This document shows positions 23,190 to 58,944 of a stretch of 64,000 bases of DNA, piece after piece. Made by a program: the position numbers and the translations under genes. The first letter of the stretch is position 1. Every line of letters begins with the position of its first letter. A model generated the notes under the pieces. The model was given only the letters and a program-made list of their open reading frames with translations, made no database searches and was not told the origin of the DNA. This stretch comes from Zygnema cylindricum (taxonomy: Eukaryota > Streptophyta > Zygnematophyceae > Zygnematales > Zygnemataceae), in the NCBI GenBank assembly GCA_037447655.1, contig JBBHKE010002841.1, positions 160,536-224,535 on the forward strand, read 5' to 3'.

Positions 23190-23191
23190 AT

Positions 23192-32761: not shown

Positions 32762-32833
32762 GTCTCTACAGAACAACCGCTTCAGTGGAAGCATTCCATC
32801 GAATATTGGTGAACTGTATACACTCGAAACTTT
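32762..32833 (+). CDS. Isolated 72-nt LRR exon in the inverted arm
   Basis: Acceptor TGATGTCACAG, 72 nt, then donor GTAAGA. In phase 2 it reads SLQNNRFSGSIPSNIGELYT and then LET plus a split codon, a complete plant-type LRR (LxxNxFSGxIPxxIG). All 72 bases are identical to the minus-strand exon at 50177-50248, while flanking intron sequence differs at several positions per 100 bp. It is on the opposite strand to the rest of the gene, so it cannot be spliced into it. It is a duplicate, either spare or belonging to an unseen gene. Confidence 0.8.
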
Positions 32834-34663: not shown

Positions 34664-34684
34664 AGTTATGGGCTAACCTTCTAG

Positions 34685-35640
34685 GTGCCCATTTTTTATG
34701 GATCAGGGTTCATCTACCATGAAAACATGATAAGGAAGGCATTGTGTGAGAAACGACTTTGGGGAATCGTGAGTGGTCGTGTTCGTCGACCAAGGCCAAA
34801 GCTAGTTATGCCACTAGGGTTTGGTGGAGCTAGGTTCTCAGGTGGATCCGAACAAGAAGGAGAGGTGAAAGAGGATGATGGGGAAAGCATCATCGTACAA
34901 AATAGAGATGAAAAAGCCAAGGGAAAAGAAAAGGTCCCTGTCCAAGCAATCAACAGTGGGTGCACCTACTCATAAGACCGAAAAAGAGTAGTGCTAACTA
35001 CTGGGATTACAACAACATGGTTGCCGTCAATCTTATTCTTCAAAATCTAATTCAAGCTATTGCCGCTCCACGCCGAGATGCGATAAAAGCGACAGATCTA
35101 TGGGATACCCTTGTAAGATTGTACAGGAGTGGGACAATCCAACAGCAAAGATTGTCAGGTCAAAAGATACAGGCATATAAATGCAAAAAGGGAGGCATGC
35201 TCGATTTTTGTAATGAGCTTACCAGTTTATTCTACAGTTGGTGAGTGTTGGGAAGGGGGTCACTAAGAAGGAAAAGGTTCACACTCTCCTAATTAAGCTT
35301 CAAGAGGAGTATGAAAGGATTATAACTCGAGTAGAGGAAATGGCGGATCATCGATGGATCTAGAATACTGTTGTGGGGATGATATTGGTCCGGGTAAACA
35401 CCTTCGAGTTTCAGGGGGAAAAAGAGAGCGGTCAAGCATTGGGTGGAGGTTCAGATTGGAAGAGGAAAGACCTCAAGAAGCTTTATGGCGGCTTTGACGG
35501 AGGAAAAGAGACTCAATCGGATTCACCTCCATCCATAGTCGCAAATAAGGTTTGTTTTTTTGTCATAAACCAAGGCACTTCTTAAAGGAGTGCAGAAAAC
35601 TTACGGAATGGAGGATCAAGGATAGTCTGATCTGTCGATC
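34685..35640 (+). pseudogene. gag: Copia gag, duplicate of element D
   Basis: Starts MPIFYGSGFIYHENMIRKAL, then CEKRLWGIVSGRV, a copia Gag N-terminal region with an inserted Glu/Lys-rich stretch. After a stop (CTYS) the frame shifts to NMVAVNLILQNLIQAIAAP and DLWDTLVRLYRSGTIQQQ. The zinc-knuckle region is truncated (FFVINQGTS, then stop). It then joins integrase sequence directly near 35640, so protease and the integrase N-terminus are deleted. Confidence 0.8.
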
Positions 35641-35973
35641 AAGAGAAATCATTTGGAGGTAAAAGGTACATGCTCACAATCACATATGATTGGTGTAAAT
35701 TTTTTAAGGTTTACTTTCTCAAATCTAAGTCAGAGGTTGGATCATACTTCTAATAAGATAAAATTGTGTGAGAAACTTTATGGAGTCCCTATAAAAAGGA
35801 TCAAAAGTGATAATGGAGGGAATTACACATTCAATGAATTTGAAGAATTCTTAAAATGTGGAGTAATACAACATCAAAAGACTATCTCAAATAACCCAAA
35901 TGGGGTAGCTGAAAGATTAAACATAACTTTGGAGGATATTATCAAAAGTATGTTGACTGACAAGAAGATATGA
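35641..35973 (+). pseudogene. pol: Copia integrase core fragment, duplicate of element D
   Basis: Holds KRIKSDNGGNYTFNEFEEFL and NPNGVAERLNITLEDIIKS, containing the second Asp and the Glu of the integrase triad. It ends TDKKI plus stop at 35973. The first catalytic Asp is missing. Confidence 0.75.
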
Positions 35974-35977
35974 AAAC

Positions 35978-36190
35978 TATAACTCTGAGACCTCCATAAG
36001 TCCTCAGAGTGGACAGCTTCCAAGAAGCCTCTAGGATAATCTTGACCCCTTTGTGTTTAAGCAAAAATAACTGCCACCCTGGCAGACAAAAACTCTGACC
36101 AACTTCAGAAAACCGGATGCCTCCCACTTAAAGGTTTTTGGCAGTCAAGTTTTTAGTCTAACTACTTACCGATCAGATTGGAAGCTAGAA
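35978..36190 (-). repeat. LTR fragment
   Basis: Reverse complement of the LTR-like sequence at about 4735-4860; shares GACCTCCATAAGTCCTCAGA and CTGCCACCCTGGCAGACAAA. It marks the inner end of the left arm. Confidence 0.75.
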
Positions 36191-37360: not shown

Positions 37361-38127
37361 TTATTTTGAGGGTGGTGATGGAGTGGGGCGAAGAGGAGGG
37401 GGGGATTTTAAAGGAGGTGAGCGAGGAGGGGGGCGACGAGGGGGAGATTTTGAACGAGGTGAGGGTGGAGAGGGGCGACGAGGAGGGGATTTGGAAGGAG
37501 GTGAGCGAGGAGGGGGGCGACGAGGAGGGGATTTGGAAGGAGGTGAGCGAGGAGGGGGGCGACGAGGAGGGGGAGATTTTGAACGAGGTGAGGGTGGAGA
37601 GGGGCGACGAGGAGGGGATTTGGAAGGAGGTGAGGGAGGAGGGGAGCGACGAGGAGGGGGAGATTTTGAACGAGGTGAGGGTGGAGAGGGGCGACGAGGA
37701 GGGGATTTGGAAGGAGGTGAGCGAGGAGGGGGGTGACGAGGGGGAGATTTTGAACGAGGTGAGGGTGGAGAGGGGCGACGAGGAGGGGATTTGGAAGGAG
37801 GTGAGGGAGGAGGGGGGCGACGAGGAGGGGGAGATTTTGAACGAGGTGAGGGTGGAGAGGGGCGACGAGGAGGGGATTTGGAAAGAGGTGAGAGAGGAGG
37901 GGGGCGACGAGGAGTGGGGGATTTAGAATGAGGTGAGGGAGGAGGGGGGCGGCGAGGAGGGGGGGATTTTGAAGGACGTGAGGGTGGAGGGGGGCGACGA
38001 AGAGGTGGTGGACGAGGAGGTGGATATTTTGCTGGAGGAGAGGGAATATATGAGGGACGAGGAGGTGGGGATGGTAATGAACGAGAGGGAGGAGGGAAGG
38101 AACGAGGAGGCGGTGGAGGCTTCACCA
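37361..38127 (-). CDS. Proline-rich, extensin-like terminal exon
   Basis: Acceptor CTTTTGTAG, then VKPPPPPRSFPPPSRS and about 230 residues dominated by alternating 14- and 15-residue units (SKSPPRRPSPPSPR and SKSPPPRRPPPPSPP), an 87-bp higher-order repeat. It ends PTPSPPSK then TAA at 37361-37363. Arg/Lys-rich SPPxR repeats resemble hydroxyproline-rich wall glycoproteins. There is no GT donor in the pyrimidine-pure final stretch, so termination here is likely. The plus-strand Glu/Gly-rich frames are shadows. Repeat number may be mis-assembled. Confidence 0.65.
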
Positions 38128-41100
38128 CTACAAAAGCGTTGAGAGTTTTATTGTCAGTCAGATTGTATTTTGCCAGAAACAAAAATCCTTTCTCAAATAA
38201 TTGACATTGTTGAATGTCCCACGAGTGTTACGGAGACAGTCATAAATTTTTGTTTTATACTTTATTCATTTTATTACGTATAATTATACGTGAAGATAAG
38301 ACTACTGAGGTTGAGAAAAGGAAGGACAAAATTAAGTGGGTGGGGGACAAAAAGTTGAAATGACGGGAAATTAGGATCAGCAGATGGCAAAAGGATGTGA
38401 CCTAAACGATCTTAGTTTGAATTCAAGAAAATATAACATACTTGTGACGACAGTTAAAATTTACAGCTTTAGTTGTTTAATCGTTTACCTTTATGAACAT
38501 ATACATATCCATTTACTAATATGATATTGACAACAAAAAAATTGTGAGCAAAATGGAACTGTCGATTGTCTACACATGCAAAAAATAATTTAGCAACATT
38601 TAATAATATAATCATATAGGAAGATTGCATAATACTGTTCTGTATTTAAAGTTTACTTTCATCAACCACAATGAAAAAGACAAAAAATTGAAATGGAAAA
38701 AAATAAAATAAACGACAATTTTACTCATGATTGGGTTTCTTGAGGATTTTATATATAATATCAATAAGATTTTTTATTTATTTTTAAACTGATGAATATA
38801 CACAGTTTTGGATCACAAAAATAGTTATGGCAAATTCAATCTTACAGTCGTATATGACAATCTGTCTTACGTGCTTTTTTATGATTTAAGCTCCCATAAC
38901 CGTCATGATATTTACGAGCGACAACTTGCCCAAAGCAAGTTCTAAGAAAAATATCTTGTAATTTGTGGATTTACAAGTCTCTTCTAATATTTAAAGATGA
39001 TTTTTTTGACAAAATTTGATTGGTTGTCACACAACAAAATTTCGAAAAAAAGATTCCTGGTGATCACAAAACTGGAAATTCTGTATGCAAAAGACAAAAG
39101 AGAATTAAAAAGATGAAAAAAAAACCTGCATAAACAAAATGTATATATGTACTCTAAAAAAAATAACACAATTGGATAAAGATAGATACGGTGAACAATT
39201 AGTCTATATGGGTTCAATACGGTACAGGTTTAGTGCAACAGTCAGAATATTTAGTATTAATTTAGGAAAGTACATTGGCTTTCAACAAAAATCCTAAATG
39301 ACCGACATTCAATTATAAAAAGTGGAATTATTTCCCATGTTTTTTATTTTTTCCCGAATATTGCCCTAATGAAGTGGCTATATTAACTTTGAAGTATAAA
39401 CCTTTATTACCACTATAGCCATTTTAATGTTATACTGACAAAAACTTGCAAAAACCGGGAGATATATTTCAACCACCAACAACATCAAGAATATCAATTT
39501 GCCAAAATTATTTGGCTCAAATCAAGGTTGTTTTGTGTTTTTTTCCCTTACACTAAACTACTTAAAATTCCATTTTTGGAACCAATCTCCACACATGTCA
39601 AATTATGTTCAACAGCAAAATGTGGTCCGTGAAATTAGACTAAGCAAGTTCACTTTGTTTATAAATATTCTTGTCCTCAACAACAAAGACGTGCGACTTT
39701 AAATGTTCCAAATTTTTGGCCAATCAAGCGCCGGCCTTACGCAATGCTGTAACATTTATCTCTTTCATTTTATTTTGGACTGGGTGATTTTTCTGCCAAC
39801 AAGAATTGTACTGCACGTTGATGTGTTTTATCAAGAGAATAAACCGTTGTACTTTTCTGAAAGTGGAGACTGAAACATATTTGAAGCTTTAAATTATTTT
39901 TGTTTGTAAAATTAAAGGAGCTAAAAATGCTTGAATACAATGGGCATACCAAAGCATATATTAGCCGATTGTGGTGACTGATTTGTACATGAAAGGTATG
40001 TCGTCGAGTTTTTTAAATTTTGTAATTGATGTAAATAAAGATACCTCAACAAATAGATGAAACTCGTGGCTTATGATTTTCTTTTCACTAAAAAAACCTC
40101 ATAGACTAGAAATTACGTTCATATACAAAGAATTTGTTGTATCTTATTGTTCAACAAGGATAGTACAAAGATTACAAGTCAGCATCTTGTCAAAAGAGGA
40201 CATACATTTGCAAATGAACTTGCTCTCCTCATTGCTGTATCCGTTATTGCATTCACATGATGGCCCGTTCGTGCCGTTGGAGCAAATACCACCTCCCGCA
40301 CAAGGGCCTCCTGGCTGGGTAGCATTGCAAAATGCTGTACACTCGTTTGTAGTTCTTTGACTTTTGGATGGGCACCCGATTGGGAGTTTTGAGCCAAACA
40401 GGCAATTTTTTTCTAAGATTTCACAATCTTGGCCCCAGTCAATTGTGGCGGCCACTTCGGTGAAGTAGTTATTATCCGCTGTACTGCAAATATGGTCCGA
40501 CATTGTAAAAGAAAATATCAGGCAAGCCATTAACATCCATGATAACACGTTTGAAAATTCGACATGTTTGCGAAGGCATCAACCTCGACTTACGTACAAC
40601 AGGGCGTACAAAAAATGCAGACAGTAGACCTTTTATATCAAATAATTCAGTATCTAATAGCATTATAATTTACTATTAAACCAAACATTCACAACAATGT
40701 TTTATTACTTTTGGTACATGGTTTTTTTATGCTATTAGTAGTATTATTATCACCATTCCTGCTATTGTTATCATTCGGACATATCTATATACATATATAT
40801 ATATTTATATTTTTAACTTACTATTATTTTTCAAATTTTCATATTATTTTTTATGATCCTAATTAAAACATTACAAATTAGTTGCACGTTAACATTTTGA
40901 AAATTAAGATGCATTTTTGAATTGAAAAAATGACTTATGAAAAATTAATCATAATAACGATAGCAATAATTATCACAAATGCGTCAAAAACAGTTAAAAA
41001 ACTTGTCAAGAAAAAGAAACAAAACAACAAAAAAAAATAAAACAAAAAACACTTTACACCACAGCTATGGTCAAACTCCTCCCCTCCTTTTTCTTTTGTC

Positions 41101-44100
41101 CATTGTGTAAGACAACACACCCTCTACCTTCCACCGTACTAGGTCCCCCCCCTCCTCCCTTCTTCCACCTCCAAGTTACTGAAATGTCCATAGTCATACA
41201 TTTTAAAGAAAACAAAAATCCCATAAAAAAAATACTGCTATTAAAAGCACTTTATTGATGCATAACATAATCATTGTGGAATATATCTTACATCCAGAAG
41301 AATTCCAATTGATTGATAGACAATGGAATGCTTCCACTCAACTGGTTATTACTTAGATCTCTAAGACACAAAAAACCAATCATAAAAACAATAAAGAAAA
41401 TTAACCAATCATAAAAGCAATTGAAAAAAACAGAGGAAAATAAATTGCGCATTTTAGTTTGGCCAATTAAACAAGACTAGTCTAGATGCTCTTAGTAAAG
41501 GCCTTAAGACAGGAATTGAAAATTTTAATGAAATTTAACCTAATTTTTGCAATGGATGTATTATTGGAAAGATGTCTCAGATTTTCTTTCCCTCAAGCTC
41601 ATCCAATTCCCAAGCTCTTGTTTATCCTATCCATAGTGATGCGTGTGGTCCTATGCGTGTCCGGAGTACAATTGGTGCACTATATTTTATTACCTTTATT
41701 GATGATCAATCACGATTTAGATTTAATACATAAAACATAAATCGAAAAATCTCACCCATGTTTTAAATTTTAAAGCTTTTGTCGAAAATAAATTTCTTCT
41801 CGCTTTAAAATATGAAGGATAACGGCGGATAACATAAAGAATTACGTCTAATTTTTTTTCATGCTTTTGGAGAAATTGACTTTTGAGGCGTGGTATTAGC
41901 TTAACATCAACGTTTTTTTATTTTTGCATTTTTGGAAGTGAGGAGTACAACAAAAATCTCGCTGATAAGGACGAGAAACAGGGCGCACACATCATTCATG
42001 GCGTTTTTGTGCCTATTTTCCATTTTTAGATGCGTAACAAATTTTATGTGCCACATCACATGGCGTCATTACCACGCTTAATGTAACTTTTGTTGAAATC
42101 CCACACAAATAGTTAGGCCAAAGATTAGTTTTTTCATGTATATCTTTTCTCAATATTCCCATTGTGCTTCTTCCACTCACCTTCAAGCTTCCAAACGCAT
42201 ATCGACACTAAGCAGCTTCATCTCACCTTTTCTCTTCCTCCTCAAACAAGCAACTCTTCTCCTACACTGTCCATCACAAACTCAACTTTCAGTTTTTTTC
42301 GAGACGCAGAGATGAGCATTGGTTTATATCGAGTGTGAGTTTTTTTCTTGGTGGAGGGCATGTCTCATGGTTTTCCAAAAATCAAGCGACGGTAGCTCTC
42401 TCCTCCATCGAAATAGAGTATATGGCCGGCACCTCCCACCAAAAGAAAAGCCATTGGGTGCCGTCGACTTCTCACCAATCTCACTTTTCCTTTATCTTTT
42501 CTTACTTATATTTTGCTCTTTCTCAAGGTGCTTTAGCTCTCATGGAAAATCTAGTTCAACATACCCACCGGATATTCAATTCTATTCCTCTCTTAAAAAA
42601 ACTATACACCACATCAATTGTTTCTCTCGTTGTGCCACGGATTCCCAGCATGCGAGTTTTTTCACCAATCCTATCGCTTGACCATTTTTTTAAAATAAAC
42701 ATCTAACGTCGGTCTTTGTGACTAGCCATGCTTCAATTAGGGGGGCTTTTAGAAATTGTTGAAGAAGCTTATGTTTGAATAAATTGTAATTCTGTATGTT
42801 CCATTCTCACACAGATTTAGCAGACTAGTCAAGCACTCTAGGATATTTATCAATGCCCACTTTCACAGATCACCCTTGCCTCCCAGGCAGTCAATAATTC
42901 TGACCAGATACACCTTTGTATAGTTTTGACTCCCCAGAGTCAGTGGCAAAAAGAATCATTGGAATTGTCTCCCTTGACATTAAGTTATGTGTTGCCAAAG
43001 TTTGGCTTTTTATACAGATGCTCTTTGAGAGAGAGGCGGTTACCCTATGAAAATTTTGTCTTATAGCCCTCTGTGAACCCCTATCTACAACAGTACGACA
43101 CCAATTAAATGACTGTATCATACAAGAAGGTACAAGTGCGGTGTACATTTTATACGGCCTGTGTACGACATGCTTTTTGGTGGACATTTGTTCGCCTTTA
43201 ATACACCATTTTTCCCTCGCAATGTCCGCTGTCCAATAACACCCCGCCACGTGTCTCCGGCGCCCTTTAGGCCACAAACGGCAAATATGCAATTCCGCAT
43301 CCTCCACTTGTTTGCAAGTTGTTCGATTCTTAGCCGGCTTTCATCGCGTCTATTGAAATGAAACATCATATATGTTTCATTTCGTGCGTATTGTATATTG
43401 TACATTTTACCTTAACTGGTTTTATGCTAGTTAGTCGGTTTTTCCGTTAAATGAATTAGATCCGCAATCATTGTGCCTGACACTAATTCACACTTATGTA
43501 TATGCAACGATTCTCTTACAACAAGCCGATTAAGGCTTAAGGCTACGCCTCGCCTTGCCCGTCAAAGGAATGAGTCCTACCGGACTCACATTTTTGGTAA
43601 AAGTGACTTATTTCATTATTGCCTTCTTACCTACCACACAGCCATGGATCAACCTCTCAATCTTTGGTCTCCAGTGACTTTGACAAGTGTGGGGACATGA
43701 GAGAGAGAAGGCAGAGTCAGACTGCCTTAGCTACTTTTTTGACCTTTTTATTTAGCTAACTCGACCTAGGAAATACCAAACAGGAATCACTAATTTTTAC
43801 ACTCAGAGTCAGACTGCCTTAGCTTCTTTTTGACCTTTTTATTTAGCTAACTCAACCTAGGAAATACCAAACAGGAATCACTAATTTTTACACTCCCTTT
43901 ATTTCCTAGTCCACTTTTAATTTGTGACCATACTTTTTCCTACAAAATTCTAATTTGGGAGAAGGTACATGTTTGGTCATCATATCTACTACCATCTCAC
44001 TATCTGGTCTGTATTCTAAGCTAATTATTTTATTTTATACCTTTTGTCTAACAAAACTTAGTCTATTATTTATGTGTTGTGCTTTGAAGTGGTGTTTGGG

Positions 44101-47100
44101 ATTGTCAACACTAGCAATGGCTGCCTGATTATCACAAAATATTTTTTATACATAACTTTTGAGATGACCTAATTCACTAAGCAATGACTTAACTCACATC
44201 ATTTCTTTTATAGCAGAGCAAGAAGCCATATACTCAGCCTCTATAGTGGACTGTGCAATAACGTTTTGCTCTTTGCTGCTCCAACAACAAGCCTTATCCC
44301 CAACATATAAGACATACCCAGAAGAACACCTCCTCATAGGAGCATCAACATAGCTAGCATCACTCTAAGTGGTGATGTTAGTATTATCCCCTCCGCGATG
44401 TAACCATAGGTCCCTAGTTCCCACTAGATATCTAAGGACTCTTTTAGCTGCCTCCCAATCCTTTTTCATGGGAGCATTTAAGCTTTTACCCAACACTCCC
44501 ACTGCTGCAGCTAAGTCAAGCCTTGTGCAATTCATAAAGTAAATTAGATTGCCTAGCACCTATCTATAAGGGATGGTCTCTATGAACTTTTGCTCTTCAG
44601 ATCCTATCTCATCATCTAGAGTAATAAATCCCTCTTCCAAACTCCCCTCACTTCTTTTCTTCAAGTCTATGGGAGTTTCATACTGTTAGCTTTGTCCATT
44701 TGGAACTTTTCAAATATGTTCCCAATAGCCTTTTTTTTAGTCAATCTGATTATCCTTTTTTTTTTTTCTTTATCAACCTGCCTCATATCTTTCTTTTAAA
44801 GTCTTCTCTTTAGATTCTCTTTTAGTTTGTTACTTTCATCTTTTATTTGCTTGAACCAGCAAATTATCCAAATAAAAAACAATAAAAATGATGCCTTTAT
44901 CATCATCCAACAGATGAATACAATGATTTGAGCTCATCAAGTATAACCTTGTTTTGTAAGGAACTCTTCGAGTTTCTTATTCCATTGATGAGAGGCTTGT
45001 TTCAGCCCATTCTAGGATTTTATCATTCAACATATCTTCCTCTCCTCTCCTTGTTCCACAAATCCCTCATGGTGCCGCATGTAGATCTATTCCTCCAACT
45101 CTCTATATAAAAATGTTCTCTTGAAGTCTATTTGGTGCACCTCCATGTTTTATGTTGCTGCCAAACTTAAGAGAATACAGACATTGGGAAATCTGCCGAT
45201 TGGAGAAAATTTATTGTCATAGTCAATTCCCTCTTTGTGTATAAACTCTTTAGCCACTAACTTGGCTTTAGAGTGCTCAATAGTGTTATCTCGGTTCAGC
45301 TTCAATTTTTACACCCATTTACACCCCATAGGCTTCCTGTCAGGTGGACAGTTTACCAGCTCCCACGTGTTTGGTGTCATTATTGAGGCCATCTCGTCAT
45401 TGATGGCTGTTTTCCATCGATTATTTTCACAACTGTTCATGGCCTCACCATAGGATCGAGGTTCACTTCGGTGAGGCAGTTTAGTTATCTTATTGTTCAA
45501 CAGTTTTTCTTGCTTTCTTTTGTTGCTTCTCTTTCCTCTTTCAATTTCTTGCAGTATTTTGTTGCTTCTCCTTCCTCTTTCAAAATCTCCAACTGGGATA
45601 GATTAGTTCTGTGGAATTTGCCTGATGATTTCAACTTCTCCCCTATCCTCTAACTCATCATCCAATTTAATGTCGTCGTCTTGGATAAGATCCGAGAGAT
45701 CTTTCGTTTGTGAAGAAATTTGGTTTTCAGTCAGAGTTTTTTTTTATAACAAATTTAGTATGTTGACTTTCATTTGTGACATTGAACTCAGACTCATTAC
45801 CTTTTTTTGACTCAATTTTGCCGTCACATCCTCTTTCTAACTCAATGTGACCCTCACAGTTTTGGTATATTTAAAAGGGTCAACTAACTTTCCCTCATCC
45901 ATGACTATTAGGTGTTTAACCATAACAATATCTTTCTTATCAATATTATAGAGTCTCTATATTTTGACTTTTTCTCCATATCCTAAAAGATATCTTGGCT
46001 TTCCCTCTGCATCTAGATTCTAGTCTGATTTGTTTGCGTTCAGTGTATAAACATGACTTTGGAATACTTTCTAGTTTGACAAATGTTGTTTTATGCGTGA
46101 CCACTTTTCATAAGGTGTCAGAGGTGTCATATCTTTCACAGCAGAGGAAAGAGTAAATGTTTTTCAGATAGTTAGCAAAGTTCATAGCCTCTAACCGAAA
46201 TTGTCTTCATATCTTCTTGTCAGTCAACATAATTTTGATAATATCCTCCAAAGTTTTGTTTAATCTTTCAGCTACCCCATTTGGGTTATTTGAGATAGTC
46301 TTTTGATGTTGTATTACTTCACTCTTTAAAAATTCTTCAAATTCATTGAATGTGTACTCCCCTCCATTATCACTTTTGATCCTTTTTATAAGGACTCCAT
46401 AAAGTTTCTCACACTATATTTTATCTTATTAGAAGTATGATCCAACCTTTGACTTGGATTTGAGAAAGTAAACCTTAAAGAATTTACACCAATCATCTGT
46501 GATTGTGAGCATGTACCTTTTACCTCCAAATGAACGAACTCTTGGTGGACCTAGATATCTGTATGAAGCAGATCTAATACTCTCTCCGCTGAATGTAGCA
46601 ACCTTTGGAAATGCAAGTTTATGAAGATTCCCTTGTGCACAACCACTACAATTATTCATTTCCCGAGAATCCTCAAAATTCAGACTCTCAACTATCTTTT
46701 TAGATTTCATTTCTCTCAATTTGTCTACATACACATGTCCCAATCTCTTATGCCACATTATCATGTCTCTTACACCAGAGTAGTAAACACATTTTTTTCA
46801 TTACTCGGGTTAAAATGAAACTTTCCTTGACTGCCTTTATCAGCTATAAAATATACTTCACTCTCATGACTGGCTCTAAAAACTCTTTTTTTAGTGTTAG
46901 TGTCAAACCCTTTATCTTCTAGCACAAATGTAGAAATGAAATTTATGTTGAGTTTAGAAATGAATAAAACTTCTAAAAATGTGAAGATAGACGTATCCCC
47001 GTTGATTGGAAATATTCACTAAGACCTTCAGATCTACTACCCATACTGATGTTGTGGTAACTACTCTTCCATCCCCATGTTGTATCTCAACTAGAGGGAA

Positions 47101-50100
47101 CTGTCTCATCTTGATAAACCACTTCCTATCCTTACACATATGCATAGTGAGTTTATTATCCAACCTTCCTCGGGGTGCTCTTTCATTCCTCCAAAGGCAC
47201 ACTTTTGCTTTCAAGGGAATCTCCCTTTCTTCTTTCAATTCCAACTTTTCATTCAGAAAAAAGTCTCCATCCACCTCGTCAGATTCCTCCTTTCCAACGT
47301 GGATTTGTGTGGCCACCAAGGCCTTTTTCTTGATTTCCCATAATTGACAGATCTGACCATCCTTGATCCTCCATTCTGTAAGTTTTTTGCACTCCCTTAA
47401 GAAGTGCCTTGGTTTATGACAAAAAAAAACAAACCTTTTTTTTTCGTCCATGGATGCAGGTGAATCCGATTGAGTCTCTTTTCCTCCGTCGAAGCCGCCA
47501 TAAAGCTTCTTGAAGTCTTTCTCTTCCAATCTGAACTTGAACCCAATGCTTGACCACTCTTTTTTTCTCCCCGAAACTCGATGGTGTTTTCCCGGACCAA
47601 TATCATCCCCAGAACAGTATTCCAGATCCACCGATGATCTGCCATTTCCTCCACTCGAGTTATAATACTTTCATACTCCTCTTGAAGCTTGATTAGGAGA
47701 GTGTGAACGTTTTCCTTCTTAGTGACCACATTCCCAACACTCACAAAATCTAGAATACACTGGTAAGCTCATTACAAAAATCGAGCATGCCTCCCTTTTT
47801 GCATCCATATGCCTGTATCTTTTGACATAACAATCTTTGCTGTTGGATTGTCCCACTCCTGTACAATCTTACAAGGGTATCCCATAGATCTGCCCCTTTT
47901 ACCACATCGAGATCTGGAGTGGCAATAGCTTGAATTAAATTTTGAAAAATGAGATTGACGGCAACCATGTTGTTGTAATCCTTGTAGTCAACACTACTCT
48001 TTTCGGTCTTATGAGTAGGTGCACCCACAGTGGATCCAATAGCTTAGACAGGGACTTTTTTTTTTCCCTTGGCTTTTTCAGCTCTATTTTGTACGATGAT
48101 GTTTTCCCCATCATCCTCTTTCTCCTCTCCTTGTTCGGATCCACCAGAGAACCTAGCTCCACCAAACCCTGGTGGCATAACTAGCTTTGGCCCTGGTTGA
48201 CGAACACGACCACTCACGATTCCCCATAGTTGTTTCTCACACAATGCCTTTATTATCATGTTTTCTTTGTAGATGAACCCTGATCCATAAAAAATGGGCA
48301 CCTAGAAGGTGGGCCCATAACTTGTAATTCTGTATGTTCTTTTCTCACACAGATTTAGCATGTTTTTTTCTCACAAAGATTTAGCAGACTAGTTAAGCAC
48401 TCTAAGATACTTATCAGTGCCCACTCTTTCATTGATCACCCTTGCCTCCCAGCCAGTCAAGAACTCTGACCAGATACACCTTTGTTTAGTTTTGACTCTT
48501 TTGAGTCAATAGCAAAATGAATCGTTGGAATTGTCCTCGTGGACATAAGGTTACGTGCTGCCAAAGTTCAGCTTTTCATACAAGTGCTCTCTCAGAGACG
48601 GTTGAAAATTCTAAGTCCTATAGCCCTCTCTAAACCCCTATCAACTGTAGTACGGCACCAATTAAATGACTATATCGTAAAAGAAGGTACAGGTGCAGTG
48701 TACTTTTTGTACGGCTTGTGTATGACAGGTTCCTTAGCAGACGTCTCTCCACCTCTGATACACCGTTTTTTTTTGTACCTTAGTTTTTTTTCTGACCCTT
48801 TTATTTTGCTAACTAGACCTAGGAAATACCAAACGGAAATCACTAATTCCTACATTAATGGCTATTTTTAAACGCTAAATTTTAAGTCTACAAGTTTATC
48901 TAACATTGTGTACTATTTTAGTGTTTGGTGCATACCTTTGGTTGTGTAAAAGATTCCTCTTAAAAACAACAAATATACATACATATATATAAATTTATAC
49001 CGTAATTAACTCTACCTACGTTAGTTACGCATAGAATTTGTTTTTACCTTAAATAGTCTTTGCACCTTCTTGATTCTCTATTACAAAAAAAATTTGCGAA
49101 TTGCAATATTTCTATACCCTACGGGATTTATCACACTTTTTTTGCTTCTTTGTTTTCATTGCATACACAAGAGCATTGAAAACCGATAAAAATATAGAAG
49201 GGAAGCTACATATTTGTTTACTGCAAGGTTTTCAATATTAATCATTGTCAATCAGAATCCCTCCCTCGTCCCCTTCTCCCCTCCTACCAAAACCCCGTTG
49301 CCCTTATTGGAATTCTTATAGAAGCCTGTGTCTAAATTGATTTTTATTGACTTTTAGTTGTATTTGCTAAGTCCTAATTCTAGTTATGTTTTTAGCGTTT
49401 TTTGCACATACTTTTTGTATCGTAGAAAGATATCCCACGAGAACTAGAACAATCTTTTCTTTTCTTGATTGCTTATACTGAGTTTACTTTTACCTGATGG
49501 CTCTGTCTCGAACCCGTGAACACGGCTTCTCGTTTCTTCTCCTATTCGGTTTTCACTATAAAATATTTTGTTTAAAATGTACAAAAGAAGTTTATAGCAA
49601 AATTCTAATTTTGTTCTATATTTGCCTCTTATACTTGTCATTTTTTACCTTTTTTGGCCAATTCTTTTTTTTGGCTTTTCCTCTTCTCTCTCTTTTTCGT
49701 CATTTTGGACATTTTTGCCCTCTTTATCATTAGCCTCTCCTCTCACCGTCCTTTATGAGTCTAATGCAATTTCCATAGCTAAATTTTTTCAACTGAAACA
49801 AAAAAAATATAGCAAAGCTTTACAAAAATAAAAAACGTAAAAAAAAAATGATTGCGATAAGTTTTAGCATTAAATAATTTTTACGAATAGTTTTAATTAT
49901 AGACGGTGTTATTTAACTCGTTATTTACTATTTAATATTTTATTCAGCATTAAGTGTTATTTATTAATATAATTTTTTAATTGCTACCAATATACATTTT
50001 TGTACTTGTTTACCATCAAGTCACATGAAGTTCTATAACCAAAATTTTTGCAAATATTTTTTTTTTTTTTTTGCTTTTGACAACTTTTCATGCATTGAAC

Positions 50101-53100
50101 CGTTATGTGCAACAAATTATTTTCTTCTACAACTCCTTTTTGATACGTTACACGACCATAGTGTCTCCAATCTTACAAAGTTTCGAGTGTATACAGTTCA
50201 CCAATATTCGATGGAATGCTTCCACTGAAGCGGTTGTTCTGTAGAGACCTGTGACATCAGGAAGCCAGAAGACCAATCATAAAAGAAACAGAAAAGAATA
50301 AACATTGAGGGACTCAAAACAATATCGATTTACAATTTTCCAGGTAGAGTAGCATGCCTTTACATGAACCAAATTCTTCCACTCTCTTCTGCTAACCCTT
50401 TTTGCTCCTACCCCCAAATTTTTCACTCGCTTGTACAAAAAAAGGAAAAACTTGAAATCAGCATAACCAATTTTCAAGAAAATAAATATATATATATATA
50501 GTAAAAGAAAAAAATGTTGAAATAAAAACAATGTTGAAAAAAATGTTGAATAACGAATGCCTCTATATACATGCGTATTAATACTTTATCTTTCGCATCC
50601 CATTTTTTTTAGATTTCACTCTCATGTTTTACACAAATCAACATTGTCAAATGACTAAAACAAAAAAAAACCAACAAGAAAAATGATAACCACAAATTCT
50701 TTCATTTCAAGTGATCAAATTTAAAAAATACAGCAAAAAAAAAAAGCCAAAACCACAAAAAAATTACTCCTAAAATTTGGAGGTAAAATAATCTTTTGCA
50801 AATTATAATGCTCATACACCACTTGGCTTTTGTCACTCACTTCGCCCCCTTCTTATGGAAAATCTAGTTCAACATATCCACCGGATATTCAATTCCATTT
50901 CTCTCATGACAAAACTATATACCACATTGGTTTTTTCTCTCGTTGTGCCACGGATTCCCAACATGCCAGTTTTTTCACGAAGCCTATCCCTCGACCATTT
51001 TTTAAAAAACATACTTCTAACGTCGGTCTTTTTGACTAGCCATGCTTCACTCAAGGTGGCTTTTTGAAACTGTAGTTCACGCTTATGTTTGAATTAATGG
51101 CTATCTTGACACGCTAAATTGTAAGTCTAGAATATCTAGCATTGTGCACTTTCTTAGTGTTTTGTTCAAACCTTTGGTAGTGTAAATGACTCCTCTCAAA
51201 AACAACAAATATACATATGTATATATATTTACTGTTATTAACTCTGCCTAGGTTGGTTTCACCTACAATTAGTTTGAACAATCTTACCAGTGTCTCCATT
51301 CTCCAATTGAGTATATAACTTTTTAAAAGACTCTTTATCCTAACTGGAAATGTAGACAAAAGCTCAAGCGACAAACCTTTTCCTTTTTGTTCCCTTGATT
51401 TTCTCTTTTTTACTTATACTTTGTTTTTTTGGCTTTCTCCCTATTTTTCAACCTCTCCTACGTTTTTCTTTTTCCTTGTATCGGCCTTTCAAGACCTCTG
51501 TTTTTATGTCAAATGAGTAAAACAAAACATAAATAACAAAAAAACTATGAGGAAAAGAAAACAACTGCAAATTGCAATATTTCCACACCCTACGGCTTTT
51601 ATCACACTTTTTTGCTTCCCTGTTTTCATTGCATAAACAAGAGTATTGAAAACCGATAAAAATATAGAAAGGAAGGTACATATTTGTTTACTGCAAGGTT
51701 TTCAATATTAATCATTTTCAATGAGAATCCCTCCACCATTCCCCTCTCCCCTCCTCCCCAAACCCCTTATCCCTTATTGGAATTCCTATTGAGACCTATG
51801 TCTAAATTGACTTTTATTGATTTCTAGTATTATTCGCTAAGTCTTAATTCTAGTTATGCGTTTAGCGTTTTGGAATTTTTCGTACATACTTTTTGTATTG
51901 TAGAAAGATTTCCCGCGAGAACTAGAAAAATCTTTTCTTTATTGATTGCTTATACCTAGTTTACTTTTATCTGATGGCTCTGTCTCGAACCCGTGTACAC
52001 AACATCTCGTTTCTTCTCCTATTCGTTTTTCACTGTAAAATATTTTGTCTAAAATGTACAAACCAACGTCAATTTTGACAAAAAAATTACAGCAAACTTC
52101 TAAATTTGTTCCTTATTTGCCTCTTATACCTGTCATTTTTTTCTTTTTTGGCCATTTCTTTTTTCTGGCCTTTCCTCTTTGTTTTTTGTCATTTTGGACT
52201 TTTTGCCCTCTTTATCATTAGTCCTCCCCTTTCACCGTCCTTTCTTTGTGAGTCTACTTTAATTTCCATAACTAAGTTTTCGCAACTATAATCAAGAAAA
52301 ATATACCAAAACTTTACATAAATAAAAAACTAAAAAATAACTAAATGTTTGCAATAATTTTTAGAATTAAATAGTTTTTATTAATAATTTTAATTATAGA
52401 TGCTGTTATTTAACTCATTGTTTACTATTTAATATTTTATTTAGTATCAAGTGTTATTTGTTAATATAATTTTTTAATTGCTACCAATATAAATTTTTGT
52501 ATTTACCGCTATCAAGTCACTTGAAGTTTTATAACCAAATTTCTGGAAAATAAAAGTGAAAACCAAATAAAAAAACTTTGCTTTTGACAACCTTTCATCC
52601 ATTGAACCATTATTTGCAACAAAACATTTTCATCTACAACACCTTATTGATACGTTACACGACCATAGTGTCTCCAGTCTTACATCTCTCGGAGCCAATT
52701 TGGTTGCCATGGGTCAATATACAATGGAATGGTTCCACTTAAGTTGTTGTAGCTAAGGTTTCTGTGACAGCGGGCAGCCAAAAGACCAATCATTAAAAAC
52801 ACAGAAAAAAAAAGATACTGAGGGACTCAAAACAATATCAATTTACAATTTCCCAGGAAGAGTCTCATGTCTTTACATGCACCTTTAATCTTCCCTCTTT
52901 TCTGCCAGCCCCATTGTCTCCTACCCCCAAATCTGTCACTCGAACAAAATAAAAAAAAACTTGAAATCATTACCAATTTTCAAGAACATAAAAACATACA
53001 TTTTAAAAGAAGAAAACGTTGAAATAAAAACAATTTTATATATCATGTCAAATCTGAAATTAAACAGTACATGTTCTAACATCTCCTTCACACACAGATG

Positions 53101-56100
53101 CACATGAATAATGAATACATGTATATATATGTACATTAATATATTATCTCTCGCATCCTTTTTTTTAGTTTTCGCTCTCGTGTTTTACACAAATCACCGT
53201 TGTCAAATGCCTAAAACAAAAAAAAACCAACAAGAAAAATGATAACCACAAATTCTTTCATTTCAAGTGACTTAATGTAAAAATATAGGCAAAACCAGAA
53301 AACAATTACTGCTAAAATTTGGAGGTAAAACAATCTTTTGCAAATTATAATGAACATACACCACTTGGCTTTTGTCACTCACTTCACCCCCCTCTTTCCC
53401 TTCCATTAAAAGAAAAATTGCAAGTCGATAAAAAAAATCTTATCAAAATATTGAAAGAAAAATACACATTTGTTAGATAGAAGGATTTTATTCCACATCC
53501 CTTCCAATAATAATTTCCTTCCCCCACGCCCTTCCACTCTCCAAGCCCCACTCGTCCTCACTTCCCATTTCCTTCCTCTATGAACTCACTAAAATTTGGA
53601 AGAATCTCTTAAATATAAAAGAGAAATAAATACAATGCTTTAATACAAGAAAATACTTAAAGAAAATATAGGCTTAAATGAAGGTTAAAAGTAAAACGAA
53701 AATGGTTTTTAATCCTTTTCTTCATTAAAAATATAGACTTTTTCCACGTTTGTTTTATTTAATATATTTAGAAAAGAGGTATTTTAATTATAAATTTAAG
53801 GTTATAGACAATTGTTACTTAAAAATATTATTTATTGTTAATCACTTTTTTTATTCTCAAATGTTCTCTAATCTTATCAATTACAAATTACTATCCTTGT
53901 ACATTGTTTTTGATATATGCTCTTATTGTCACTATTATGATAACATATATTAATGATCATCATTAATAGATAAAAATCACTATAATGTTTATTTCTATGT
54001 AACTGTCATTGTAGTTTTTCACTGTATTATTGATATTTCATGTAATTATTTAGTATTTTTTTTTCTTGTCATTAAGATTTTAACCAATCTGTTGTTTTAT
54101 CATTATTCATGCTCCCTCTCCTTCTATCTCTCCTTCTCCCTCTCACTCTTTTTATCCCCCTCCCTCTCCATATCTCTCCCTCTGCCTCTCCCTATCCCTC
54201 TCCTTCTTCTTCCTGTCACTCTCTCCCTTCCTCCCTCCCCTTTCTCTCTCTCTCTTTCTCTCTCTCTGTCTCTCTCTCTCCCCCTCTCTCTCGCCCATGT
54301 ACAACACTCATTCCCTCCACTGTTACTTCCACACCCATTTTGTTCTTATTTGTCTTTCTTCTTCTCCTCCTCTCTATGTCTATTTCCGCCTATGCCCAAA
54401 AAATTTGTCATAGTTTTTCATGCCTTTTGGAACTCATTCATAGTTTTGATGTTATTTATGGTATTCATTAAAATTTTATATTGTGAATTTGATATATAAG
54501 ATTAAAATTTTCGTAAAAATGCAGTAAAAGTCGAAATTTTTGAATATGTTGAAGTATAGAAAATGTAAAAAATGCAAAAACTTGGAAATTGTTAATTATG
54601 TTGAAAATGTAAAATACGTCAAAATGCATAAAAAAACAAAATGAGAAAATGCCGAAATGAACAAATTGCCGTAATATAAGGCATAAAAATTGAAGAAATG
54701 TCAAAATGCATAAAACGTCGTAATCTAAAAATCTTCCAAATACAAAAATGTGAAAAAAATTAAAAATAAAATCAAAAATATCTAAATGGATCAAGTTTTG
54801 GGATGGGAAATGCGATAGTACAAAAAATATTGTTGCAGAAAAATAAAAAAGCAAAATATCAAAAATGCAAAAATCGTGGAGATAAAAAATACATGAAAAG
54901 AAAAAAAAATGTTAAATTGCAAAGAATGATAATAGGAAAAACAATGCCAAAGCACAAAAAACAATTTAAATAGGGAAAATGCAAAAAATGTTAAAAATGC
55001 AAAATAGTACCATGCACATAAAGCCAAAACAGGCAAAATATTGAAAAAAAAAAATGTCAAAATTTAAAAAAAGAAAATCCAGAAATTTCAAAACCCAAAA
55101 AGCATCGACACTTATTATATGTAGAATTGCGAAATATACTACCACACAATTTTTTTTGAAATTTACACAGTATTGAACTACAGAAAAAATCGAAAAGGAG
55201 AAAATGTCTTTTTGTACAAGATGTGAAATACAAAAGATGCCAAAATGCGAAAAATATCAAAATACAAAATTTGCCATTGTGAAAGAAAAATCGAAATGTA
55301 ACTAGTACACAAACAAAAAATACATTCATTTTGTTGTAGTATGTAATTTTTGTTGATGTTATGTTTAGTTTAGTTTTTGATATTTTGCATTATTTTTTAT
55401 TGCCGATGACCTTTATTGTTTTGCTATAATAATGACATTTTTTCTGTTGATGCTCGTATTAAAATTAGTATAAATAAAAACATTTTTTATCATTTAGATA
55501 TTGCTATTATTATTTTCATTATTATTATTGTTTTTTATGAGATTTACTATCCATTTGGAATAAAGTTACATCTAAATGTTTGAGAAATTGAAAAAAAAGA
55601 TAATAATAATAATAAAAGTAATTGTATCAATGATAATAAAAAAACAGATATATATAACAAAGCATTATAACAAATAAAAAAAGTGACCTAGCAAATGAAA
55701 TACTTTATTAAAACAGAAAAAAAAATGAAATCCCACCACACAGATCTAGTCACGCTCCTCCCTCCCCTCTATTATCCGCTACATAAAAGCAATAATCAGC
55801 AAACCATATAAAAAAACCCGCTAAAATGTAGAAAAAAAAATCTACAATCGTAGCATGCGCGTTTTCCAATCCATATATATTTTAGAAAACGATTTCTCAC
55901 CCCACCTCCTCTCCAACCCAGCTGACCCTCCATCCCTTGTTCAACCGTCAAGTAATTTAACTGTATGACTATGTTTTTTCAAATAGAAAAACGAATAAGA
56001 AATAAAACTTTGTTGTTGACAACCTTCAATGCGGTAAAGTAGCTCTGCAGCCAACAATTTCGGTTTAGAACACATTGTTTATCCATGACGCAACGTGTCA

Positions 56101-58944
56101 TGTGTCTTACAAGTATTCGAGGTATTCCATTCCACCGGTGGAAAATGGAACGCTGCCACTCAACTCGTTATAAGATAAAGATCTGCCACACCGGGCATTC
56201 ACAAAACTGATTACAAAAATAGCTGGAAAAAAATCACAAATTGAAGGAAACTAAGCAATAAACCAAAACAATTTAGCAAAAGGAATAAATAAAAGCTGAA
56301 AAAAACAACCAATTTTCAACAACATGCAAAGATATTTAGCAAAAGAAACAACGAATAAAATAAATATATACATGATGTCAAATATTAAATCAAAAATTAC
56401 ATGTTTCTCTAATATCGCCCTCGAACATACATGCATATAAGTAATGAATATAAGCAAATATATGTAGATATTTGCATCTTATCTCTTGCCCCAACCAGTT
56501 TTTGCTTTCATTTCATTGCTTAACACAGATAATTCCATTTCAAATGACTAAATAAAAAAATACAACAAAAAGAACAATCAGCAAACCCAAAATAATAATA
56601 ATTGCTAAGAATTGCTGAAAAAAACCACTTTAAACTAGAATGGTTACACACCACATGGCTTTTCGAATTATCCTCATTCCCCTCCGATTGCACAAAAAAA
56701 TAAATTTCAAAATAATAAAAAAAAACTCATCGAAACATAGAATGAAATATACACATTTTAATGCAAGGTTCTAAATTAAAAAGATTGGATCACGATTCTT
56801 TGCTCCTCCTTTCGCCATTTTTAACCCAGAACGCTCTCCCCTCCCCCCAATCAACCTCAATAAATTTACTTGAATTCCTACCCCTATTTTTCTAAATGTA
56901 ATCAAAAAACAAATAGCAAAGCTTTGCAACGAGAAAAAATTCAAAAAAAAAAAACTTAGTCTAAAATGTCTACTACACAACCAAATAGTAAATTGTTTTT
57001 TTTTTCTTTCAAATGAATATTGTTTCCAAAATTATTTATCACGCTAATTAGAGATCATTAGTTTTAATTAACAGGATTATATATATATTTTTTTTGGTTT
57101 CTAGGTAATGGTGAAGAGGTCATAAAAGATCGAAACGAGGAAATCAAGGTGTAAACAAAAGGGCAAAAGGAGAGGGAAGGTAAAAAAAAGAAAAAGGAAG
57201 TAAAAGAGACAAACAAAGAACAAAATAAAGATGTGTGCTGTAAATTCATTTGTCTCAGTTGAGATTATTATTGCACTTGAAATAAAAAAAAAATATATGA
57301 ATGAAACACATAGGAGAAGGAATTGAGAAGCCGCGCACATGGTTTCTGGGTAGAGCTAATCTGGCTATGACTAATCTAGGTAGAACTAACCTAGGTAAAA
57401 GATATTTTTTTATTTTTTTTAAACTTCAAAGGAACTATCTACACTAAAAAAAGGCTAGTTTTAAGACATAGTGTTTAGGACTTACAAACAAGAAATGCCA
57501 ATTTGTATTTTAAGAATAGATATTTCATTAACAATTAAATATTACTCGACACAAGCATTCCTTAATGATTTTCAAGGTTTCTTTTTTATTGGTTTCTATG
57601 AATGGTCACCATCATTGTATATTAGTGTCACTTTTTGTTATTTTTGTTATTATTATAATTTTCTATTATTATCGCTAATGTTGTTATAATTGTTATTTAT
57701 AATACTATTACCCCTCTAATCATTGTCATTGTTATTACGTTTACTTATCATGTTAAATATATTTGGAATACAGTCACACAAACATTTAAAGATCTAGAAT
57801 TTCATTTTTCAATAATAAAAAAGGACAGAAATAATATTACCTATCATTATAGTAATGATAATAGTGATAACAGTGATAAAAATAATAATTACTACTATGC
57901 CTATAATAATCGTACTCGAAACAAACAAATAAAATAACAAAAAATAGCAATTAAAAGAAAATCACACCACGTGGGTTTTGTAATATTATTTTTTTTCCTC
58001 CAATGCAAAAAAAAAAAACAATTTGAGAACCAACATAAAAAATCTCAAGAAAAAAGAAAGGGAAAACACACATTTGTAGAATCTATTAAATTGTCATTCC
58101 CTTACCCCCAAACCCTTTATTTCCGCAGAACCCCGTCATCCTCCCATTTTCTACCATCAAGTCAATTAATTTTTTGTTACTAATTTTCTTAATCGAAAGC
58201 TAAAATAAAAAATCTTTCTCTTGCGAAACATTGATTTCGGTGAACTATTTTCTGCGGAAAACCAATTCTATTTAAAACACACTTTAACTGTGTTGTAATA
58301 CACTTTAAGCTGTGCCCCCAATGAATCTCGACTATTGCATTTCTAGTTTTATATTCATGCATATTTTATTTTCAATGAAGTACTATCTTTACGAGACTTT
58401 TAAATCGGTCTATAGTTTGTGTATGGATACCCTTATTACTAGCCGTACACATTGTACTTATTGAAGACCACAACTTTAGTTTACGTTAATTCATTATTGA
58501 TCCCATAATGTTGCATTTGTCCTCAATTCTTTCAACCCGTAACTTTTCATTAACAGTCACTCGTTCAACCTTAATGCATTGCAGCTTCTTTTATTTTGGA
58601 TGTGCAAAAGAGTCCTCACTAAAGCTTAGTGATGAGTCCTCACTAAATCTCGTGCTACTCTAGTTATTATTCAACTTTTTAACTTATCTGTTGCTTCTCT
58701 TTCTGAATTCTTCTTATTTGATTTTGGTCTACCCTTTGCTTCCACAATGTTCATTCATATGAGTCTCCTCTCTCTTGTATTTGATTATTTTCACCGATTT
58801 CTTTTTGTTTTGCTCACCATGCCTTTAAGTTTTATACGATGCATAACACAACCATAGTGTCATGTGTCTTACAAAGCTCGGAGGCCTCTCATACCACCGA
58901 TGGACGACGGAATGCTTCCAGTCAGCTGGTTGCCCGACAATACT
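37361..58944 (-). CDS. LRR-EGF-proline-rich gene (3' part; 7 exons recognised)
   Basis: Exons, 5' to 3' on the minus strand: 58944-58873, 56182-56111, 52761-52684, 50248-50177, 41360-41292, 40483-40206, 38127-37361. Every LRR exon starts and ends in phase 2; the EGF exon enters in phase 2 and leaves in phase 1; the last exon enters in phase 1, so the reading frame is continuous across all joins. The predicted product has at least five plant-type LRRs, a Cys-rich EGF-like module and a basic Pro-rich C-terminus ending in a stop, with no transmembrane or kinase region. That suggests a secreted or wall protein, functionally like LRR-extensins, but with an EGF module they lack. The signal peptide and N-terminal exons are not found. 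Introns reach about 9 kb and contain copia D. A pseudogene cannot be excluded. Confidence 0.65.
38128..40205. other. Intron of the LRR-EGF-Pro gene
   Basis: AT-rich, no recognisable repeat or coding region. Donor ATGTATGTCC at its 5' end (minus strand, 40205) and acceptor CTTTTGTAG at 38128. Confidence 0.55.
40206..40483 (-). CDS. EGF-like cysteine-rich exon
   Basis: Acceptor ATATTTGCAG, 278 nt, donor AAAT|GTATGT. The product begins TADNNYFTEVAATIDWGQDC. A cysteine-rich part follows, with spacing CNATQPGGPCAGGGICSNG and GPSCECNNGYSNEE, then FIC, the C-x-GG-x-C...C-x-C-x-x-G-Y pattern of an EGF-like fold. EGF modules are usually extracellular. The exon enters in phase 2, matching the LRR exons, and leaves in phase 1, matching the Pro-rich exon (joint codon TTG). 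Ten or more Cys residues fit a disulphide-bonded secreted domain. Confidence 0.7.
41292..41360 (-). CDS. LRR exon (69 nt)
   Basis: Acceptor TGTGTCTTAG and donor GTAAGA flank 69 nt reading DLSNNQLSGSIPLSINQLEF then FW plus a split codon, an LRR one residue short of the usual 24. It lies about 0.8 kb upstream of the EGF exon and is probably the last repeat. The adjacent intron shares ACCAATCATAAAA-type words with the other units. Confidence 0.75.
41460..42784 (+). mobile_element. Copia remnant related to element 1
   Basis: Pieces of integrase (CGPMRVRSTIGALYFITFID, about 41645) and RNase H (GGGHVSWFSKNQATVALSSI then EIEYMAGTS, 42348-42440) resemble element 1, followed by the RNase H tail and an LTR-edge-like end (CTTATGTTTGAA). 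The same end recurs at 51082-51095. Heavily frameshifted. It ends at the target duplication of copia D. Confidence 0.75.
42785..43892 (-). repeat. 3' LTR of copia D (1108 bp)
   Basis: About twice as long as the 5' LTR because it keeps a central segment (about 43200-43700) that the 5' copy lacks, and because its U3 end is tandemly duplicated (43712-43803 and 43804-43892, 92-bp period). TATA-like box on the minus strand near 43010. Confidence 0.8.
43893..46230 (-). pseudogene. pol: Copia pol: integrase tail, RT, RNase H (element D)
   Basis: From 5' to 3': the linker, RT start (SEPRSYGEAMNSCENNRWKT, TPNTWELVNCPPDRKPMGCK at 45500-45309), RT middle with several stops and an NGLKQAS motif, MLGNLIYFMNCTRLDLAAAV (44559), and RNase H (WSSKEQNVIAQSTIEAEYMA, about 44280-44210; DNQAAIASVDNPKHHFKAQH; DMMTKHVPSPKLEFCRKK). 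A polypurine tract AATAAAGGGAG directly precedes the 3' LTR. Many stops; the YVDD region is degraded. Confidence 0.8.
46231..46764 (-). pseudogene. pol: Copia integrase (element D)
   Basis: Starts MIMWHKRLGHVYVDKLREMK, with the zinc-binding His and Cys (NNCSGCAQGNLHKLAF). The first catalytic Asp is not recognisable: SASYRYLGPPRVRSFGGKRY stands where relatives have HxDxxGP. After a stop at 46429 the core continues in pieces to NPNGVAERLN near 46270. Confidence 0.8.
46954..48301 (-). pseudogene. gag: Copia gag and protease (element D)
   Basis: Starts MPIFYGSGFIYKENMIIKAL, then CEKQLWGIVSGRV, frame-shifted into NMVAVNLIFQNLIQAIATP and the 47631-46954 frame. The zinc-knuckle remnant is CHKPRHFLRECKK (Gly to Arg). 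At the protease site, RLDNKLTMHMCKDRKWF stands where relatives have DSGAT-HMCKDR, so the catalytic D-S/T-G is lost. Confidence 0.8.
48323..48854 (-). repeat. 5' LTR of copia D (532 bp)
   Basis: TGTAGGAATTAG...GAATTACA. Shares U3 start and the R-U5 part with the 3' LTR. The internal body starts AGTTATGGGCCCACC; the primer-binding site is not the TGGTATC type and is unidentified. Confidence 0.85.
50177..50248 (-). CDS. LRR exon (72 nt)
   Basis: SLQNNRFSGSIPSNIGELYT then LET plus a split codon. Acceptor GATGTCACAG and donor GTAAGA. Identical over 72 bases to the inverted-arm exon at 32762-32833. The join with the exon at 52684 gives codon ATG, and with 41360 gives TTA (Leu). Confidence 0.8.
50852..51095 (+). 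mobile_element. Copia 3'-end remnant at the junction of two LRR units
   Basis: Starts abruptly at CTTATGGAAAATC and matches 42540-42779 (RNase H tail HTHRIFNSI and the CACGGATTCCCA segment), ending CTTATGTTTGAA followed by TTAATGGCTAT. It is the same remnant that precedes copia D in the other unit, so it was duplicated along with the unit. Confidence 0.75.
52684..52761 (-). CDS. LRR exon (78 nt)
   Basis: Acceptor GCTGTCACAG and donor GTAAGA. Reads NLSYNNLSGTIPLYIDPWQP, then NWLRE plus a split codon, an LRR with two extra residues after the IP motif. It is phase 2 at both ends. It is less regular than its neighbours (LYIDPWQPNW replaces xxIGxLxxL), which may mean relaxed constraint. Confidence 0.7.
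54092..55330. repeat. CT-rich tract followed by degenerate AAAATGCAAAA repeats
   Basis: 54092-54300 is CTCTCCCT-type low complexity. 54520-55330 consists of dozens of imperfect AAAATG(C/T)-AAAA words of about 9-13 bp. The long Phe-rich minus-strand and Ser/Leu-rich plus-strand frames here are artefacts. Confidence 0.8.
55331..56110. other. LRR-gene intron, no other feature
   Basis: AT-rich, with a short ATT/ATA trinucleotide tract near 55505-55530 and 55596-55615. It ends at the donor of the exon at 56111-56182. Confidence 0.5.
56111..56182 (-). CDS. LRR exon (72 nt)
   Basis: Acceptor CCGGTGTGGCAG and donor GTAAGA around 72 nt reading SLSYNELSGSVPFSTGGMEY, then LEY plus a split codon. Joins upstream and downstream both give TTA (Leu), restoring the LRR consensus. 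Confidence 0.78.
58873..58944 (-). CDS. LRR exon (72 nt), most upstream found
   Basis: Acceptor GGTTTCACAG and donor GTAAGA around 72 nt reading VLSGNQLTGSIPSSIGGMRG, then LRA plus a split codon. It is a canonical plant LRR. Earlier exons (other repeats, N-terminal cap, signal peptide) should lie above 59 kb but I could not find them, either because an island is inserted at 59.4 kb or because they are outside the window. Confidence 0.8.

Follow-up and report, generated by a model that had tools for sequence, protein, structure and literature searches.

A split gene candidate in Zygnema cylindricum with LRR mini-exons, an EGF-like cysteine exon and a proline-rich tail

Main finding

Seven exons on the minus strand of the window (the whole stretch of DNA analyzed, 64,000 nucleotides of Zygnema cylindricum) join in one open frame. 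The locus is real-looking and probably codes for a protein. The reading preferred here, with chances that are judged to be about even, is that the seven exons make up the 3′ portion of a eukaryotic gene with multiple exons, whose product would be an extracellular, kinase-free protein which combines LRRs, an EGF-like module and a basic proline-rich part. We are fairly confident that the LRR exons form one gene with the exon coding for the EGF-like module (henceforth the cysteine exon), and moderately so that the proline-rich tail is part of it too.

Gene model

The model was rebuilt from the raw sequence. The sequence-only reading had proposed seven phase-matched minus-strand exons joined in one frame, and its coordinates, phases and splice dinucleotides were confirmed at all six junctions. 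In 5′ to 3′ order, there are five LRR exons, each of them phase 2 to phase 2, at positions 58873–58944 (72 nt), 56111–56182 (72 nt), 52684–52761 (78 nt, with an in-frame 6-nt difference from exon 4), 50177–50248 (72 nt) and 41292–41360 (69 nt). They are followed by the cysteine exon at 40206–40483 (278 nt, phase 2 in and phase 1 out), and by the exon of the basic, proline-rich tail at 37361–38127 (767 nt, i.e., 254 whole codons and the stop). The concatenated exons form a single open frame of 468 residues terminated by TAA. The introns, as calculated from the coordinates, measure 2,690, 3,349, 2,435, 8,816, 808 and 2,078 nt. The donor sites read GTAAGA in five of the six introns and GTATGT in the remaining one, and all the acceptors are AG. 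The accompanying statement that no long ORF reveals the gene needs qualification, as the cysteine exon lies inside a 144-codon open stretch and the tail inside a 273-aa ORF.

The model is incomplete at its 5′ side: it begins within an LRR, without initiator exon or signal peptide, and a scan of the minus strand of the window for the plant-type LRR N-cap motif C-x-W-x-G-[VILF]-x-C gave no occurrence. The 5′ end of the gene is either absent or past base 64000 of the window. Scans for Rfam families (at the gathering threshold) and for tRNAs gave no matches.

Proline-rich tail

The 254 codons of the tail encode 49% Pro and 22% Ser, 59 Lys plus Arg, zero acidic residues and no Met, so the tail cannot start on an ATG of its own. 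Its DNA is a minisatellite with periods of 42, 87 and others, which appears in the protein as repeats of 14 or 15 codons. The remaining two frames of the repeat contain one and two stops and, since they are nearly open too, the openness of the tail frame is weak evidence. The join between the cysteine exon and the tail, which rests on phase and position, is the least secure of the model, the compatibility of phases being a one-in-three match.

The best-surviving alternative to the preferred reading is concerned precisely with this join. It states that the LRR and cysteine exons are one gene, that the proline stretch is a minisatellite, either intronic or independent of the gene, and that the true 3′ end, which might include transmembrane and kinase exons, is lost or located elsewhere. 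The repetitive nature of the tail DNA and the near openness of its other frames speak in favor of this alternative, as do the lack of any match of the tail in Pfam and NCBIfam and the possibility that the frame of the cysteine exon continues to a stop in the next intron (open stretch 40578–40147). Nevertheless, it is considered rather unlikely, because the phases of the cysteine exon and the tail match, and because the repeat units keep one frame in 12 of 12 consecutive cases in spite of their variable length (seven of 14 codons and five of 15), even if these 12 units are copies of one another and not independent observations.

Another point against this alternative is that no kinase exon was found on the strand of the gene in the window, though one could lie outside. 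In tblastn runs with the 120 listed LRR proteins (E 1e-3), only the LRR exons were recovered, and phmmer with 16 kinase-bearing proteins against the 2,299 ORFs of the window (E 0.5) gave no kinase exon on that strand. The 79 rows of the latter search fell on eight ORFs, namely the six LRR copies described below and two ORFs of the plus strand, each with a single weak match, at 42129–42335 (E 0.19) and 12270–12407 (E 0.42), which were taken as chance. So, the absence of a kinase that had been claimed for this gene holds for its strand within the window.

LRR exons and their flanks

The assignment of the five short exons to LRRs was upheld by domain profiles, as the predicted protein matched Pfam LRR_1 with E=2.7e-18. 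A pattern for the LRR core motif, composed after the exons were seen, occurred six times in the six frames, whereas 200 dinucleotide shuffles yielded 0.315 occurrences on average and never more than 3. A unit profile constructed with the five exons and 45-nt flanks recovered six strong units and no seventh one (next match E 0.71), the scores of five of the six holding by construction since those five built the profile. The number of five LRR exons is thus correct for the array, at the lengths and phases given, while there are six copies in all: the extra one, at 32762–32833 of the plus strand, is identical to exon 4 in 72 of 72 bases.

Concerning the flanks of the five units, pairwise alignment over 60 nt (10 pairs on each side) gave a mean identity of 0.63 for the 5′ flanks and of 0.64 for the 3′ flanks, the likeness on the 3′ side being inflated by the common donor sites. 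Two sets of controls were run with the same aligner, leaving out the pairs with <50 aligned columns: flanks before other AGs gave a mean of 0.48 (84 pairs, 95th percentile 0.61, maximum 0.68), and random pairs a mean of 0.46 (n=74, 95th percentile 0.57, maximum 0.67). On average, the flanks of the units exceed chance likeness. Taken pair by pair, the likeness is strong only for exons 3 and 4 and, on the 3′ side, for exons 1 and 2, and five of the ten pairs of 5′ flanks are under the 95th percentile of the controls. We infer that all five LRR exons derive from one ancestral unit formed by an exon plus an intron.

In a protein search with the LRR region, 6,460 of the 7,970 scored candidates passed. 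The relatives so obtained were rejected as a guide to architecture, the best 120 of the 6,460 being generic LRR proteins from bacteria, metagenomes and flowering plants. Plant-type LRRs thus occur also in bacterial and metagenomic proteins, among the matches listed.

Tandem units, inverted copy and exon divergence

According to a self-comparison of the window, exons 3 and 4 occupy adjacent, head-to-tail tandem units of about 2.5 kb each, at 50851–53396 (exon 3) and 48854–50854 (exon 4) of the minus strand. The unit of exon 4 is split by a decayed Copia-type LTR element (42796–48854, minus strand), placed in the intron between exons 4 and 5 and oriented like the gene, and resumes past this insertion at 42784–42538. 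The pieces of the terminal repeats of the element are 80–86% alike, and its Pol_BBD match, with 20.9 bits, does not reach the curated cut-off of 27. Near 48320 the element reads TTATGGGCCCACC, which we take to resemble half of an initiator-tRNA primer site.

The sixth LRR copy lies within an inverted copy of the exon 4 region and part of the Copia element, at 31939–35980 of the plus strand, also detected by self-comparison. The inverted repeat has about 3.5 kb, with 32159–35651 matching 50854–47331 (92% by BLAST). The far flank of the copy, 31939–32124, matches 54069–53885 (94%), upstream of the exon 3 unit, and so the inverted copy joins an exon 3-side flank to an exon 4-type unit. Judging from this arrangement, the number of units at the locus has apparently varied. 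The plus-strand LRR copy keeps its splice flanks, with no second LRR unit or EGF pattern on the plus strand. The condition of isolated pseudogene fragment, which the sequence-only reading had named as contrary to a gene, is seen in this copy only.

The two tandem units differ in their exons more than elsewhere. Exons 3 and 4 are identical in 42 of 72 positions (58%) versus 1,430 of 1,659 (86%) in the remaining duplicated stretch (Fisher p=1.8e-8), and versus 486 of 588 in the 300 nt next to the exon on either side (p=6.9e-6), these p-values being optimistic as alignment columns are not independent. Among 287 sliding windows along the units, the two with the lowest identities overlap the exon (0.62 and 0.64), and one intronic stretch also gives 0.64. 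The values of dN and dS for this exon pair were 0.67 and 0.35, respectively. General diversifying selection on the array is not claimed here: the excess of exon divergence is restricted to exons 3 and 4, the identities of exons and flanks being similar or mixed in the other pairs, and dN is higher than dS in only three of the ten exon pairs, while dS is higher than dN in seven. Diversifying change would suffice to explain the divergence of exons 3 and 4, and so would conversion from another LRR exon.

These data also bear on an alternative in which the locus is a decayed, unexpressed gene disrupted by transposons. In agreement with it, a Copia remnant occupies the intron between exons 4 and 5, an inverted copy of one LRR exon stands without any further LRR exon or exon with the EGF pattern beside it, and a search for relatives of the cysteine exon retrieved none. 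This search, made with a padded query, gave five word-sharing candidates, none of which scored, its reach being relatives that share several exact 5-residue words and measure 0.55–1.75 times the padded length. The lack of such relatives and the large transposon remnant in one intron count against the gene model as well. On the other hand, the seven exons join without stop, frameshift or broken splice dinucleotide, and they are intact although the exon 3 and exon 4 units carry 20 gap events over 1,876 columns, of which four, including the 6-nt gap of the exon, are multiples of three. This, together with the higher dS in most exon pairs, makes decay improbable.

In a more elaborate version of the preferred reading, the locus would encode an LRR-EGF recognition protein that lacks a kinase and is anchored in the wall, and cassettes of one exon each would be duplicated, deleted and copied again to renew its set of LRRs, with the inverted copy as a silent conversion donor and with exons outpacing introns under diversifying selection. 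Such a locus would parallel, on the extracellular side, the LRR cassettes that are shuffled in the ROCO genes of brown algae. This version is speculative, and the chance that it is correct is small.

Cysteine exon

The cysteine exon encodes ten cysteines and has a GC content of 0.47, versus 0.32 locally. Stop-free stretches of its length appeared in 100 of 300 local shuffles, none of those with ten cysteines. The last six cysteines fit EGF spacing, and the layout of the exon is probably that of half an LRR, followed by a four-cysteine segment and then by a six-cysteine EGF-like module. The spacing of the six cysteines in EGF-like modules includes C-x-C-x2-[GP]-[FYW]. A six-cysteine pattern with this element, composed after the exon was seen, matched once in the window, at 40329 of the minus strand, and in 0 of 300 shuffles; among the matches listed, it was present in 0 of the 120 LRR relatives. 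The EGF profiles gave scores under the Pfam curated cut-offs (hEGF, 19.0 vs 29.3 bits; EGF, 14 vs 21.5 bits), and so the module is named EGF-like only. The proposal of an EGF-like exon is sustained by the cysteine pattern, unique in the window, with weak profile matches. A search of the PDB at E up to 10 retrieved only two distinct sequences, MIC6 (E 0.38) and Notch (E 9.6), both of them EGF-bearing. A single-sequence AlphaFold model of the exon had a mean pLDDT of 37 and was unusable.

The exon opens with TADNNYF, in LRR register. LRR-like starts of this type are found at 34 of the 3,525 AG sites on the strand, six of them being those of the exons described here, while likeness to LRR exon starts at the nucleotide level is matched by 111 of the 3,525. 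The last alternative, in which the cysteine exon and the tail form a separate short gene, unjoined to the LRR exons, could invoke that the frame of the cysteine exon extends upstream, within its 144-codon stretch, and takes in an in-frame ATG plus a short hydrophobic stretch readable as a weak signal peptide, but it is very improbable, as that hydrophobic stretch is where the pyrimidine tract of the acceptor is expected, and the exon starts in the register and phase of the LRR exons (such a start being present at 28 other AG sites).

Other features of the window

Copia-type gag, integrase and reverse-transcriptase fragments were identified with Pfam on the plus strand at 2499–6889 and 14318–17350, and a further Copia-type fragment was recognized by eye at 26350–26724, also on the plus strand. 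The reverse transcriptase at 16187–17350 has relatives with 36–46% identity (best 120 of 1,307); those with an organism name were, within the same best 120 of 1,307, four fungi and a mite, with no land plant. Two additional repeats were observed: an inverted one of about 1.2 kb, 86% identical, with widely separated arms at 11328–12513 and 62325–63482, and a direct one of 648 bases, 90% identical, at 22543–23190 and 27535–28182. The sole run of N in the window, 10 bases at 7900–7909, is probably an assembly gap.

Proposed explanation

According to the preferred reading, the gene would be transcribed and would encode a protein in which at least five plant-type LRRs are followed by a C-terminal cap, rich in cysteines and including one EGF-like module, and by a Pro/Ser/Arg-rich tail of about 254 residues. 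The protein may be secreted and act in recognition at the wall. A ligand would be bound in an arc formed by the LRRs, and the part encoded by the cysteine exon would close this arc and serve as a second contact. The tail, positively charged and probably hydroxylated, would anchor it in a polyanionic wall or matrix, if the tail does belong to the gene, a role similar to the one ascribed to the extensin part of LRX proteins. The LRR array would have expanded by tandem duplication of units that each comprise a phase-2 exon and an intron, which would allow the addition of repeats with the frame preserved.

If the gene is transcribed, a combination of LRR, EGF-like and proline-rich parts without a kinase joins the extracellular LRR proteins, and the locus illustrates the duplication of single-LRR cassettes, with the coding part outpacing its flanks in one pair.

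Comparison with known systems

The nearest architecture is that of the LRR-extensins (LRX/PEX), which share with the protein predicted here, provided that the tail is part of the gene, an LRR domain followed by a C-terminal Ser/Pro-rich part and the lack of a kinase. LRX proteins are not known to carry a module between their LRR and extensin parts beyond a cysteine-rich hinge. Here, a six-cysteine module with EGF spacing stands between the LRR and proline-rich parts, and so the gene is not filed as an LRX. Moreover, LRX genes are mostly intron-poor, whereas the LRRs are here split into mini-exons, and the tail is in this case a basic one, of SPPxR/K type, with no SPPPP and, by eye, no YXY. The LRX2 structure 6qxp scored 88.8 bits, far under several receptor kinases, in a comparison where scores rise with the number of repeats (best 60 of 314). 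In PMC4769139, LRX proteins are described as LRRs plus Ser-Pro repeats, with at least two SPPP as a criterion (there are seven in the tail studied here), and the four algae examined there are reported to have yielded none.

The exon structure has its counterpart in the LRR receptor kinases of rice. According to PMC3050792, the introns of their LRR domains are phase 2 and located at the first Leu, a 72-nt exon corresponds to one LRR, and the duplication of short exons is proposed as the origin. The likeness to the present array includes one LRR per exon, the typical 72 nt and, in that same source, variants of 69, 75 and 78 nt. The difference is in what follows the array, here a cysteine module and a proline tail, with no kinase exon on the strand in the window. 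The ROCO genes of brown algae, as described in PMC11378527, contain 72-bp phase-2 LRR exons subject to shuffling, diversifying selection and alternative splicing. Such tandem exons are also present here, where one pair outdiverges its introns. The modules are in our case of extracellular type, and no ROC-COR GTPase was found in the parts scanned, i.e., the predicted protein and eight ORFs.

An EGF-like module is also a feature of WAKs, where it is thought to face the wall. Unlike them, the protein predicted here has LRRs, no kinase and, in Pfam at E up to 10, no match to the galacturonan-binding domain. In other articles, EGF is treated as a WAK domain and LRR proteins were removed from that set (PMC10834447), oomycete receptor kinases were checked for other ectodomains including EGF and none was found (PMC3268121), and a red alga is reported to be without EGF-containing genes (PMC6928737).

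The combination had been proposed as one not known as a described plant family. In its favor, an LRR-EGF-proline protein was not described in the titles and abstract beginnings searched, among the matches listed, a protein of the same architecture was not retrieved in the word-limited search, and the EGF pattern is missing from the LRR relatives mentioned above. Against a wider novelty, 72-nt phase-2 LRR exons are known, and so are kinase-free wall proteins with LRRs and Ser-Pro repeats, the LRX. The mechanism by which the gene would have been built, i.e., the duplication or shuffling of 72-nt phase-2 LRR exons, is already known, and the protein predicted here adds a new variant to the extracellular LRR proteins and does not amount to a kind of its own.
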